Assembly: GCA_000517565.1 (NCBI GenBank)
Contig: CP007051.1
Location: 1,015,039-1,079,038, forward strand
Length of the DNA: 64,000 nucleotides
DNA from: Desulfurella acetivorans A63
GTDB taxonomy: Bacteria > Campylobacterota_A > Desulfurellia > Desulfurellales > Desulfurellaceae
Reading direction: 5' to 3'
Part shown: piece after piece, positions 3,972 through 56,584 of the stretch
How positions within the stretch are numbered: position 1 is the stretch's first letter
How the letters are laid out: every line of letters begins with the position of its first letter
Notes under the pieces: model-generated
What the model saw: only the letters and a program-made list of their open reading frames with translations
What the model was told of the DNA's origin: nothing
Database searches by the model: none
Made by a program: the position numbers and the translations under genes

Positions 3972-4526
3972 TTAAACAGATAAAATCTCTTTTTCTTTTA
4001 AGCTAAATAAATTATCTATTTCTTTAATGTATTTATCCGTTAATTTCTGCATTTCATCTTCTTCTTTTTTTAGATCATCTTTAGATATAGCTTTATCTTT
4101 TTCTAAATCTTTTAGAATTGTATTTGCCTTTTTTCTTATGTTTCTAATATTTACTTTATATTTTTCACTTTCTTGTTTAAGTTGCTTCACAATACTTTTT
4201 CTATCTTCTTCGGTTAGTGGTGGCATGTTAATTTTAACAACTTTACCATCATTATTTGGTGTCAATCCTATATTTGATTTTAAAATCGCCTTCTCAATAG
4301 CTTTTAGTAAACTCAAATCCCACGGTTTAATTATTATCGTTGTAGCATCAGGAACCGAAATAGAAGCGACCTGCTTTAGCGGCATTTTTTTTTCGTAACT
4401 TTCAATAAGAATATTTTCAACAAGCAGACTGTGAGCTTTACCTGTTTTGAGAGACGTAACATAGTTTTTATAGGCTAAAAGAGCTTTTTCCATTTCAGAA
4501 GCAATGGGTTTAACTTCATCTATCAT
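3972..4526 (-). CDS. frr: Ribosome recycling factor
   Basis: A 184-residue protein with the normal RRF length and motifs: the N-terminal helix, the R-loop region (here KTGKAHSLLVENI), the beta domain around IIIKPWDLSLLKAIEKAI, and the C-terminal coiled arm ending in KYIKEIDNLFSLKEKEILSV. It dissociates post-termination ribosomes together with EF-G. It sits between pyrH (9-base gap) and uppS (1-base gap) in the conserved rpsB-tsf-pyrH-frr order. Confidence 0.96.
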   Translation of the reverse strand: MIDEVKPIASEMEKALLAYKNYVTSLKTGKAHSLLVENILIESYEKKMPLKQVASISVPDATTIIIKPWDLSLLKAIEKAILKSNIGLTPNNDGKVVKINMPPLTEEDRKSIVKQLKQESEKYKVNIRNIRKKANTILKDLEKDKAISKDDLKKEEDEMQKLTDKYIKEIDNLFSLKEKEILSV

Positions 4527-4535
4527 ACTGCCTCC

Positions 4536-5249
4536 TTAGCTAACTAATGTGCCTACCTTTTTGCCTTCTATTATGCTTTTTAGGATACCCTCTTTGTTTA
4601 TATTTAAAACAATAATAGGTAATTTATACTCCATACACATAGATATTGCCGTTGAGTCCATAACTTTTAAATTTTGATCAAGAACTTGAATGTATGTGAT
4701 TTCTTCTATCAATTTGGCATTTTCATAAACCATAGGATCTTTATCGTAAACACCATCAACTTTTGTAGCTTTAAGTAATACTTGAGCGCCCATTTCCATA
4801 GCCCTAAGTGCTGCTGCTGTATCTGTAGTAAAGTAAGGGTTTCCAGTACCAGCAACAAATATTACCACCCTACCTTTTTCTAAGTGTCTCAAAGCCCTTC
4901 GTCTAATATATGGTTCAGAAATCTGCCTCATTTCTATTGCGCTAATAACGCGGGTGGGCACATCAAGTTTTTCTAAACTATCTTGTAGAGCTAAACCATT
5001 GATTACTGTAGCAAGCATACCCATATAGTCTGCACTTGCTCTATCCATACCAAGCGCAGCACCTTTAATACCTCTAAAAATATTTCCACCACCGATAACA
5101 ATAGAAATACTTACACCCATTTCCCACACTTGTTTAACTTCGAAGGATATTTTTTTTATCATTTTGTCATCTATGCCAAAAGGAAGCTCGCCAAGCAAAG
5201 CTTCCCCACTGAGTTTTAATAAAATATTATTATAAGCAGGTTTAGCCAC
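4536..5249 (-). CDS. pyrH: UMP kinase
   Basis: A 237-residue amino-acid-kinase-fold enzyme that phosphorylates UMP to UDP. The phosphate-binding [10 protein letters not shown] is near the N-terminus, GGGNIFRG follows, and the nucleotide/UMP motif [17 protein letters not shown] is intact. Length is typical. It starts 3 bases after the tsf stop, so the two are cotranscribed. Confidence 0.96.
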
Positions 5250-5252
5250 GAC

Positions 5253-5849
5253 TTATTCTTCTCCTAACTTAAATCTTACAAATCTTCTAAGTATAATATT
5301 TTCGCCAAATTTTGCTATAGCGTTATTAATTAAATCTCTTACTTTAATCATATCGTTTTTTACAAAAGGTTGATCAAGTACGCAAATTTCTTCAAGGTAT
5401 TTGTTAATTTTGCCTTCTAATATTTTATCAATAACATTTTCAGGTTTACCACTTTTTATTAGCTGCTCCCTTTGAAAAGTTTTTTCCTTTTCAATTACTT
5501 CTTGAGGAACACTTTCTTTGTCAACATAAAGTGGATTTGTAGCCGCAATATGCATTGCTATGTCTTTTGCAAGTTGAGCAAACTCGTCTGTATTTGCTAC
5601 AAAATCCGTTTCACAATTCAATTCTACCATTACGCCGATTTTACCACCTGCATGTATATAGCTTACTATTTTACCTTCATTTGCAACCCTAAGCGATTTT
5701 TTTCTAGCACTTGCAAGCCCCATTTCTCTGAGTTTTTCTATAGCTTTATCAATATCGCCATTTGCTTGCTCAAGAGCTTTTTTGCAATCCATCATACCAG
5801 CGCCAGTGCGTTCTCTTAACTCTTTAACTAATTGGGCATTTATTTCCAT
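5253..5849 (-). CDS. tsf: Elongation factor Ts (short form)
   Basis: A nucleotide exchange factor for EF-Tu. The UBA-like N-terminal domain contains RTGAGMMDCKKALEQANGD, and the core contains the conserved VELNCETDFVANTDEF. At 198 residues it is much shorter than the E. coli form (about 283), matching the compact EF-Ts class with a single core half found in many low-GC and thermophilic bacteria. It starts 3 bases after rpsB ends. Confidence 0.95.
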   Translation of the reverse strand: MEINAQLVKELRERTGAGMMDCKKALEQANGDIDKAIEKLREMGLASARKKSLRVANEGKIVSYIHAGGKIGVMVELNCETDFVANTDEFAQLAKDIAMHIAATNPLYVDKESVPQEVIEKEKTFQREQLIKSGKPENVIDKILEGKINKYLEEICVLDQPFVKNDMIKVRDLINNAIAKFGENIILRRFVRFKLGEE

Positions 5850-54142: not shown

Positions 54143-54227
54143 CAATAAAGAGGCCATTCATTATTCTGTGTCAAACCAGAATGAAAATGTGTAAAATATT
54201 TTAACTTTTTAGGAGGTTTGACCAGTT

Positions 54228-54311
54228 ATGAATTTTAGTGAACAGGAAACTCAAAAGCTACTAAAAGGTATTGATGTTAACCCATCTTCGTCAAAAACCT
54301 CCCAAGTTTAG
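54228..54311 (+). CDS. 27-codon open frame after a strong Shine-Dalgarno, uncertain
   Basis: An ATG at 54228 sits 11 bases after AGGAGG and reads MNFSEQETQKLLKGIDVNPS plus seven residues before TAG. The rest of the sequence up to the transposase remnant has no frame. It may be the truncated 5' end of a lost gene or element; no family was recognised. Low confidence that it makes a functional peptide. Confidence 0.25.
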   Translation: MNFSEQETQKLLKGIDVNPSSSKTSQV

Positions 54312-54460
54312 CTAAAATGCTTTACCTATAAAAGCATAAACATTATCCAGAAGGCATCTTTTGTAATTATCTTTATCATTTTGCCCAAAAAGCTTAATTG
54401 AGTGACTGAATATTAATATAACACTTAACAAATGAAATTTGATAGTGTATATTGCCTTTT

Positions 54461-55349
54461 ATGTATATTCGTCCTGTCGCAAAATTAGACAAAAAGAACA
54501 ATAAGAAATACACAGCATATGAGCTTGTCCAATCTTACAACACTCCAAAAGGACCAAGGCAGGAAGTTACCTTGTATCTGGGAAGTTCAAACAAGTTAAG
54601 CGATCTTACCAAAGAGGAGTTCAAGCTTCTTGCCAAAAGAATACGTGATATACTATACAATCGCCCCTAACCTCTTTTTGGGTTTTCTCCCAAAATAGAA
54701 GAGTTAGCCGAATTTTACGCAGACACAATAATAAAGAAAAATAGAAACAGCAATACAGTTGGTAATCATACTCCAGCGCAATTTACATCCGTTGATATTG
54801 ACAGCATAGAGCATTCAAAGGTAAGGACAATAGGAGCAGAATATATTATTTTAGAGGCTCTAAAATCTCTCAGTATAGATAGAATCCTAAAAGGGCTCGG
54901 GTTTTCAAAAAAAGAAATAAATACAACAATAGCTCTTATAACGGGCAAGCTATTTGGAAACACACAAGAATGCTCCATCCATTCTTTCCTTCAAAATCAA
55001 AGCGCAATAGATGAACTTTTAGACACAAACTTCAATAAACTTTCTTTGTTTAGTCTGTATAGAGTTCAAGACAAACTCTTCAATCAAAAAGAACAAATAG
55101 AATCTAAGCTCTATGAAAAACAAAGCCTATACTGATTTAGTCCAATATGGCCACTCCAAAGAAAAAAGAACAGATTGTCCTTTGGTAAGTCTAGCCCTTG
55201 CTTTAAACCAATACGGCTTTCCTGTAAAAAGCTTTATATTCAAAGGCAATGTATCTGAACCCAAAACACTTTCTTCTATGATAGAAAGCATTACTATGGA
55301 TGCTTCTATACAAAAGTGCATTGTGTTTGATGCTGGCTTTGCTAATAAC
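54461..55349 (+). pseudogene. IS1634-type transposase remnant
   Basis: Fragments of one transposase are read in two frames. The first part starts MYIRPVAKLDKKNNKKY and LVQSYNTPKGPRQEVTLYLG, then meets an in-frame TAA (54668-54670) and continues with PKIEELAEFYADTIIKK and a helical middle until TGA at 55133-55135. The second part, in another frame from 55113, gives QYGHSKEKRTDCPLVSLALA and FIFKGNVSEPKTLSSMIESI and ends at IVFDAGFANN. The DDE region before QYGHSKEKR is deleted, and the 3' end is missing. The family is inferred from these patterns. No terminal repeats could be recognised. Confidence 0.75.
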
Positions 55350-55617
55350 ATGCATTTTCCTTTGATTGTTGCTTTTCTTGTAGGTTTAGCTGAGTTTTGT
55401 GGTGGAATTTCTATGCTGACTGGTATATTTGTACGCCTTGGAGCGCTTGGTATTATGATTGTAATGTTTGGCGCTATAATAATTGTTCATCTGCCGCATG
55501 GATTTGACTTGCAAAAAGGCGGTATGTGCACTAACAGAATTTTTACTGGCTCTAAGCGTTTTTGTATATAAAGCTGGCAATATAACGTTAAAGTTTAAAA
55601 AAGGAGGAAAGTTATAA
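55350..55617 (+). pseudogene. doxX-family gene remnant fused in frame to the transposase fragment
   Basis: From the Met at 55350 the frame reads MHFPLIVAFLVGLAEFCGGI, then GIFVRLGALGIMIVMFGAII and VHLPHGFD, the core of DoxX membrane proteins. The N-terminal helix is missing. The C-terminal part (ALTEFLLALSVFVYKAGNIT) is only found in another frame, so there is a frameshift near 55527. The open frame 55113-55571 is therefore a chimera of transposase and doxX debris, not a real gene. The doxX frame would end at TAA 55615-55617. Confidence 0.75.
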
Positions 55618-55931
55618 GCAAGGTAGTCATTATTTTAGCTAATCCAAATGACGAAGTTTTAAAAACCGGTGTTTTATATGGCGCTAATGCTGTAAAATAC
55701 AAATGGTTTGAAGATGTAAAATTTTTTGTGTTTGGCGCAAGCCAGGAAATAATCCTAAAAAACGATGAACTTTTAAACACACTTAAAAAACTCCAGGCGG
55801 TAGCCTGCAAGTTTGTTGCCAAAGAAAAAAGCATTGATAAGCTATATAAAGAAAAAGGTTTTAACTTAGAATACATTGGCGAACCTCTATCTAATTTAAT
55901 TAACGAAGGCTATATTCCAATGGTGTTTTGA
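55614..55931 (+). pseudogene. DsrE-family gene with ATA in place of the start codon
   Basis: The frame reads SKVVIILANPNDEVLKTGVL, YGANAVKYKWFEDVKFFVFG, and ends YIGEPLSNLINEGYIPMVF: a complete 105-codon DsrE/DsrF-like protein. AAGGAGG (55601-55607) is perfectly spaced before codon ATA at 55614-55616 where ATG is expected. A G-to-A change at 55616 would explain both this ATA and the TAA end of the doxX frame (TTATGA to TTATAA). A shorter start at GTG 55728 would lose a third of the fold. It could still be translated weakly from ATA. Confidence 0.7.
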
Positions 55932-55939
55932 ATTCTACT

Positions 55940-55967
55940 AAAATAGAACACTTTTGCTATTTTTTTT
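55940..55967 (+). terminator. Weak rho-independent terminator after the dsrE remnant
   Basis: AAAATAG (55940-55946) and CTATTTT (55957-55963) make a 7-base-pair AT-rich stem ending in a T run. The stem is weak, so this is tentative. Confidence 0.35.
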
Positions 55968-56025
55968 AAACAAAAATGTGAAAATGCATTCAGAATTGAA
56001 AGTAGATTGAACTAAGCACAACACA

Positions 56026-56337
56026 TCAGATCTTAATATTTAACAAACTACCTAACATTTGATTTTGTGCTTGAATAGCTTTAGTGTTTGCTTTATAAGT
56101 TATGCTGTTTAAATTCAAATTTACTATTTGGCTTGTTAAGTCAACATTATTGCCATTTAAATTTGATGGGGTGTTTGATTGGATTATGGTTTGCGTTACA
56201 CCTTTATTGTTTGGCAAAGTCATTGATGTAACATTCAATTGTTTATAATTTTTTGAGTTTAAATTGGCAATATTACTTGCAGTTACATCTTGTCTTATGG
56301 ATGCATCGTTGAGTCCGCTAATACTTGTTAAAAACAT
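56026..56337 (-). CDS. Minimal flagellar basal-body rod-like protein
   Basis: A 103-residue protein. The N-terminal SISGLNDASIRQDVTASNIA and NLNSKNYK match the flagellar rod/hook Asn-rich motif (ANNIANxxTxGY), and the C-terminal VDLTSQIVNLNLNSITYKAN plus LGSLLNIKI matches the conserved rod C-terminal helix. The two ends are joined with almost no middle domain, shorter than FlgB or FlgC (about 130-140). It may be a stand-alone rod paralogue. It is 15 bases downstream of a second small motility-like gene. Confidence 0.7.
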   Translation of the reverse strand: MFLTSISGLNDASIRQDVTASNIANLNSKNYKQLNVTSMTLPNNKGVTQTIIQSNTPSNLNGNNVDLTSQIVNLNLNSITYKANTKAIQAQNQMLGSLLNIKI

Positions 56338-56352
56338 ATTATGGTCCTATGC

Positions 56353-56550
56353 TTATGCCATCTGATCAAATTGATTTCCAATGGTTTTGGATTTTGGCAC
56401 AAGATTTTCTTGATTGCTTTGATTGTTGATCTTTTGTGTATTATTAGTTTTTTGCTGCATTGCAATTAGATCACTCACCTGTTGTTTATTTTGATCTATA
56501 GCTTTTTTAAGCGTGTCTATTTGCACCTGAGCACTTGCATTAACTTGCAT
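56353..56550 (-). CDS. YjfB-like small putative motility protein
   Basis: A 65-residue helical protein starting MQVNASAQVQIDTLKKAIDQ with QVSDLIAMQQK later, then an Asn/Gln-rich tail. This resembles small YjfB/putative motility proteins that lie near flagellar genes; the match is by pattern only. The ATG at 56548-56550 directly follows AAGGAGGTGTTT, so the longer frame from 56628 is rejected. It and the rod-like gene share one promoter. Confidence 0.55.
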   Translation of the reverse strand: MQVNASAQVQIDTLKKAIDQNKQQVSDLIAMQQKTNNTQKINNQSNQENLVPKSKTIGNQFDQMA

Positions 56551-56584
56551 AAACACCTCCTTGCGTCTTTCATTCTTATCTACT

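Follow-up and report, generated by a model that had tools for sequence, protein, structure and literature searches.

A DsrE-like gene with ATA in place of ATG, a probable pseudogene in a damaged doxX operon of Desulfurella acetivorans

AUA start codons have been described in the infC, ccpN and citZ genes of S. aureus, where initiation was mapped or measured and where a strong Shine-Dalgarno sequence precedes the AUA (PMC13009471). The AUA starts of ccpN and citZ yield about 10-30% of the reporter expression obtained with AUG; that of citZ is limited to a single S. aureus strain lineage (PMC13009471). A different kind of precedent is provided by bacterial pseudogenes that arise from one of two paralogs by insertion or deletion involving insertion sequences (ISs) and by point mutation.

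In this study, we analyzed a stretch of 64,000 nucleotides (the window) from D. acetivorans A63, whose genome (G000) comprises 1.82 Mb, and compared it with the genomes of two genus mates (G001 and G002). An earlier note on this DNA had described a full-length DsrE-family frame behind a perfect AAGGAGG, with ATA as its first codon, and had offered as the explanation either that the locus is decaying and has recently lost the start codon or that a rare ATA start is used. The frame (55614-55931) and its start region (55600-55619) were confirmed as described. The best explanation, to which we assign a probability of about 0.8, is that a doxX-dsrE-like operon is dying and that its start-less DsrE-like copy represents ordinary gene decay, with at most weak initiation at AUA. 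The features of the locus are collected in Table 1.

Table 1. Positions of the features discussed, numbered from the first nucleotide of the window
Feature	Position	Strand	Remarks
Second IS, left end	54151..54276	+	IS256-like by inspection, no Pfam hit; interrupted by first IS
Truncated IS, right end missing	54277..55348	+	IS1634-like DDE transposase by inspection; left end TTAACCCATCTTCGTC
Chimeric ORF	55113..55571	+	Transposase fragment in frame with doxX fragment; tail frameshifted
IS transposase/doxX fusion junction	55344..55350	+	
doxX 3' part	55346..55617	+	From codon ~43 of G001 doxX; lacks 5' part; TAA at 55615-55617 ends ancestral frame
5-bp deletion site relative to G001 doxX	55524..55530	+	GGTATGGAATATGCA versus GGTATGTGCA; doxX frame shifted
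Shine-Dalgarno sequence AAAGGAGG	55600..55607	+	8 nt; 6-nt spacer to ATA
DsrE-like gene, probable pseudogene	55614..55931	+	ATA for ATG; 105 codons plus TGA, otherwise intact
ATA codon	55614..55616	+	Derived G-to-A at 55616; paralog and both genus mates have G

The start region and the protein

Positions 55600-55619 read AAAGGAGGAAAGTTATAAGC, i.e., AAAGGAGG AAAGTT ATA AGC, and the frame that begins at 55614 ends with TGA at 55929-55931. No in-frame ATG, GTG or TTG occurs upstream of 55614, where five codons are open before a stop is reached, and the first such codon downstream is a GTG at 55728 (codon 39); ATA is therefore the sole candidate start at a normal Shine-Dalgarno distance. A G at 55616 would give TTATGAGC. 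Two properties count against reading the gene as a pseudogene: the frame is free of stops and frameshifts and retains the conserved Cys65, and its Shine-Dalgarno sequence is the strongest among the four copies compared.

A second copy of the gene, 92% identical over 330 nt, is located on the minus strand of the same chromosome (G000:C1:1772945-1773262). Its start region reads GGAGGTAAGTTATGAACAAA, with the ATG form GGAGGTAAGTTATGAAC, and the corresponding regions of G002 (GGAGGAAATTATGGGCAAA) and G001 (AAGGAGGAAAAACTATGAGTAAG) also have ATG. A comparison of this base among close relatives, which the earlier note had proposed, found A in the window copy alone, the paralog and the two genus mates having G. 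Since ATG is present in these three copies, ATA is the derived state. The frame is more than a chance one: the intact paralog and the orthologues align with it nucleotide by nucleotide and have ATG where it has ATA. Codon 2 of the window copy encodes Ser, the same residue as in G001, unlike the Asn of the paralog. Where the alignment covers the N-terminus of more distant relatives, an ATG lies at most a few residues from the aligned start in nearly all of them, with TTG in one; an ATA start was found in no relative. These relatives were retrieved by an alignment query of genome contigs, a single-protein query having found none. Relative to its 813-aa counterpart in G001 (L014:3386-5827), a CopA-like P-type ATPase gene near the intact paralog (L003:3183-4944) lacks about 0.68 kb and is broken into two ORFs.

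Genome-wide, AGGAGG followed at a distance of 4-8 nt by ATG occurs 266 times versus 18 for reversed-pattern controls. The corresponding numbers for ATA are 49 and 36, i.e., near background and not clearly enriched. The DsrE-like gene is the only one of the 49 ATA matches with a frame of at least 60 codons for which no plausible start other than ATA exists; in the remaining matches a start precedes the ATA or follows it within a few codons, or the ATA lies inside a longer gene. Two matches that seemed startless at first sight were rejected, one as an internal codon of ilvD and the other because a usual start codon lies 7 codons in.

The AlphaFold model of the window protein is a confident alpha/beta fold (pLDDT 94.8). 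The closest protein is BT1422 of Bacteroides thetaiotaomicron (PDB 2fb6), with a sequence profile match at E = 8.7e-7, a Foldseek TM of 0.84 and a cysteine aligned at Cys65; it has no assigned function. DsrE (3pnx) is matched at TM 0.63 (E 0.014), and TusBCD/DsrEFH at about 0.58-0.6 with weak E-values. The window protein matched no Pfam or NCBIfam DsrE model, and none of 8 family members gave a Pfam DsrE match even at a cut-off of E = 1. Of the earlier DsrE-family label, which has fold similarity as its only basis, a DsrE-like fold may be a fair description of the predicted structure, but membership in the family is not established.

The broken doxX gene and its insertion sequences

The main lesion of the locus, which the earlier note did not mention, is the fusion of an IS transposase fragment to doxX. 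In G001, an intact doxX (135 aa) is located 24 nt ahead of the DsrE-like gene, and the two form a complete doxX-dsrE pair. The window matches other copies of the IS up to 55348 and G001 doxX from 55348 on; past the junction, the IS copy of G002 (L023) continues as transposase (GCTACTACAGAAAAT) and the window as doxX (AACATGCATTTTCC). The truncated IS is about 97-99% identical to this copy and to one in its own genome (L022), and G002 carries the second IS downstream of rtcB too, at the corresponding site. The junction is most simply read as an IS-associated deletion that extended into doxX.

The fusion removed the doxX start and the first ~42 codons, and the DoxX domain in the fused fragment (PF07681, E 2.3e-10) covers only part 31-84 of the 85-position profile. 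The operon promoter would have been removed along with the 5' part of doxX; a scan for promoters of the sigma-70 type gave no match in 55100-56050. A 5-bp loss after about 55526 causes the fused ORF to stop at 55569-55571, and because of this shift the ancestral doxX frame is unread. The earlier note had held that one base alters both the doxX stop and the downstream start. The doxX-derived frame indeed ends in TTA TAA at 55612-55617, and G would make the stop TGA; but doxX is broken and another frame is read, so that the change from TGA to TAA is real but silent. Literature searches on doxX-dsrE operons found nothing useful.

Elsewhere in the genome, a complete nested IS pair with both ends is present at C1:1171468-1172665 and beyond (within L022, G000:C1:1169968-1174165). 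It consists of an IS with matching ends TTAACCCATCTTCGTC / GACGAAGATGGGTTAA inside another IS, and its nested left part recurs in the window beside a different flank. In G001, the rtcB-archease region (L089, about 4200-5540) aligns with the window only as separate fragments and has no long rtcB ORF among those listed; it is possibly degraded in that species. On the other side of the DsrE-like gene, the minus strand at 56026-56562 encodes a short protein of the flagellar rod type (103 aa, with Flg_bb_rod and Flg_bbr_C), which adjoins a weak YjfB-like motility protein.

Selection and mosaic history

In a pairwise comparison of the window gene with its paralog, dN was 0.046 and dS 0.216, which indicates that most of their divergence built up under constraint. 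A custom-written branch codon model, applied to 104 codons with the start codon left out, gave an omega of 0.80 on the window branch versus 0.067 elsewhere. Of 400 simulations with a single omega, 3 reached the likelihood ratio (LR 6.28; P about 0.008), and an omega fixed at 1 on the window branch fits equally well, i.e., neutrality is not rejected. The same model found no significant omega effect on the branch of the paralog, and an alternative topology gave the same result (LR 6.67). Five sites are changed in the window copy with the other three copies agreeing, and four of these changes, including ATG to ATA and Gly73Ser, are GC-to-AT. The codon analysis provides moderate evidence that selection is relaxed on the window copy alone, since a gene of 104 codons leaves few substitutions to carry the signal.

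The two copies (window 55614-55931 and L003:6946-7263) are near-identical in the 5' half and diverged in the 3' half: 2 of 126 nt differ in codons 4-45 and 19 of 180 nt thereafter. Among the residues that distinguish the two proteins are K59, S73 and K76 of the window copy, where the paralog has E59, G73 and G76. Trees of the 3' part placed the paralog with G002 (lnL -472.4 vs -475.6) and those of the 5' part placed it with the window copy (lnL -331.9 vs -337.0). A simple recent duplication was rejected as the origin of both copies because of these different groupings. The mosaic suggests gene conversion between two older paralogs, an event that would help explain why a decaying frame is still open.

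Probable operon decay and other explanations

The earlier proposal that a locus in decay has recently lost a start codon is supported by the derived G-to-A change against three ATG copies, two independent lesions in the adjacent gene (the IS-doxX fusion and the 5-bp frameshift), and the relaxed constraint on this copy alone. On these comparisons, the DsrE-like gene is probably a pseudogene. With bacterial pseudogenes of one of two paralogs it shares a truncated neighbour, a frameshift, a lost start, a relaxed dN/dS and an intact second copy; the start loss here is a single base and the frame is otherwise open, and nothing essential differs.

The individual steps are shown by comparison, and we infer their order. 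ISs came to lie downstream of rtcB, and a deletion from inside a transposase into doxX took the doxX start and 5' part, probably together with the promoter of the operon. What remained of doxX was shifted by the 5-bp deletion, and the G-to-A change at 55616 converted the ATG of the downstream gene to ATA. The loss may have been tolerated because an intact paralog remains. Two things would account for the frame being open to this day: the loss is recent, and gene conversion with the paralog has probably renewed the 5' half. Given a transcript, weak initiation at AUA may persist, at most.

It is unlikely that AUA is a real, attenuated start at which the 8-nt Shine-Dalgarno sequence compensates, such that the gene serves as a low-dose paralog turned down rather than off. 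The perfect AAAGGAGG with its 6-nt spacing and the ccpN and citZ precedents argue for such a start, as the S. aureus genes also have a strong Shine-Dalgarno sequence before AUA and the citZ codon, like the window ATA, is lineage-specific (PMC13009471). However, initiation at AUA was mapped or measured in S. aureus, and in the window copy the branch has an omega near 1, the gene upstream is destroyed with no match in the sigma-70-like promoter scan, and a genome-wide signal of ATA starts is absent. The rare-ATA-start option of the earlier note thus found no positive support, and start-codon loss is the better of its two proposals.

A sequencing or assembly error at 55616, with G as the true base, is less probable still. 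Although a single base in one assembly is concerned, the substitution lies outside any homopolymer, and A suits a copy that carries further lesions and in which G-to-A changes are in excess. Codons 2-3 differ from those of the paralog (AGC AAG vs AAC AAA), so that the site does not stem from mis-assembled paralog reads, and a G would in any case leave the operon wrecked. Least probable is expression from another start: the GTG present at codon 39 is used by no close relative and would leave the predicted fold without its first strand and its first helix, and run-on from the transposase-doxX chimera is opposed by its stop at 55571, ahead of the gene.

Read as operon decay, the locus would be a clean example in which IS-driven deletion, frameshift and start loss are combined, with an intact paralog on the same chromosome as an exact control. 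Gene callers restricted to ATG, GTG and TTG will either overlook the frame or predict an incorrect 67-aa gene beginning at 55728. If its product appeared in a proteome, the gene would represent a natural case of an AUA start.
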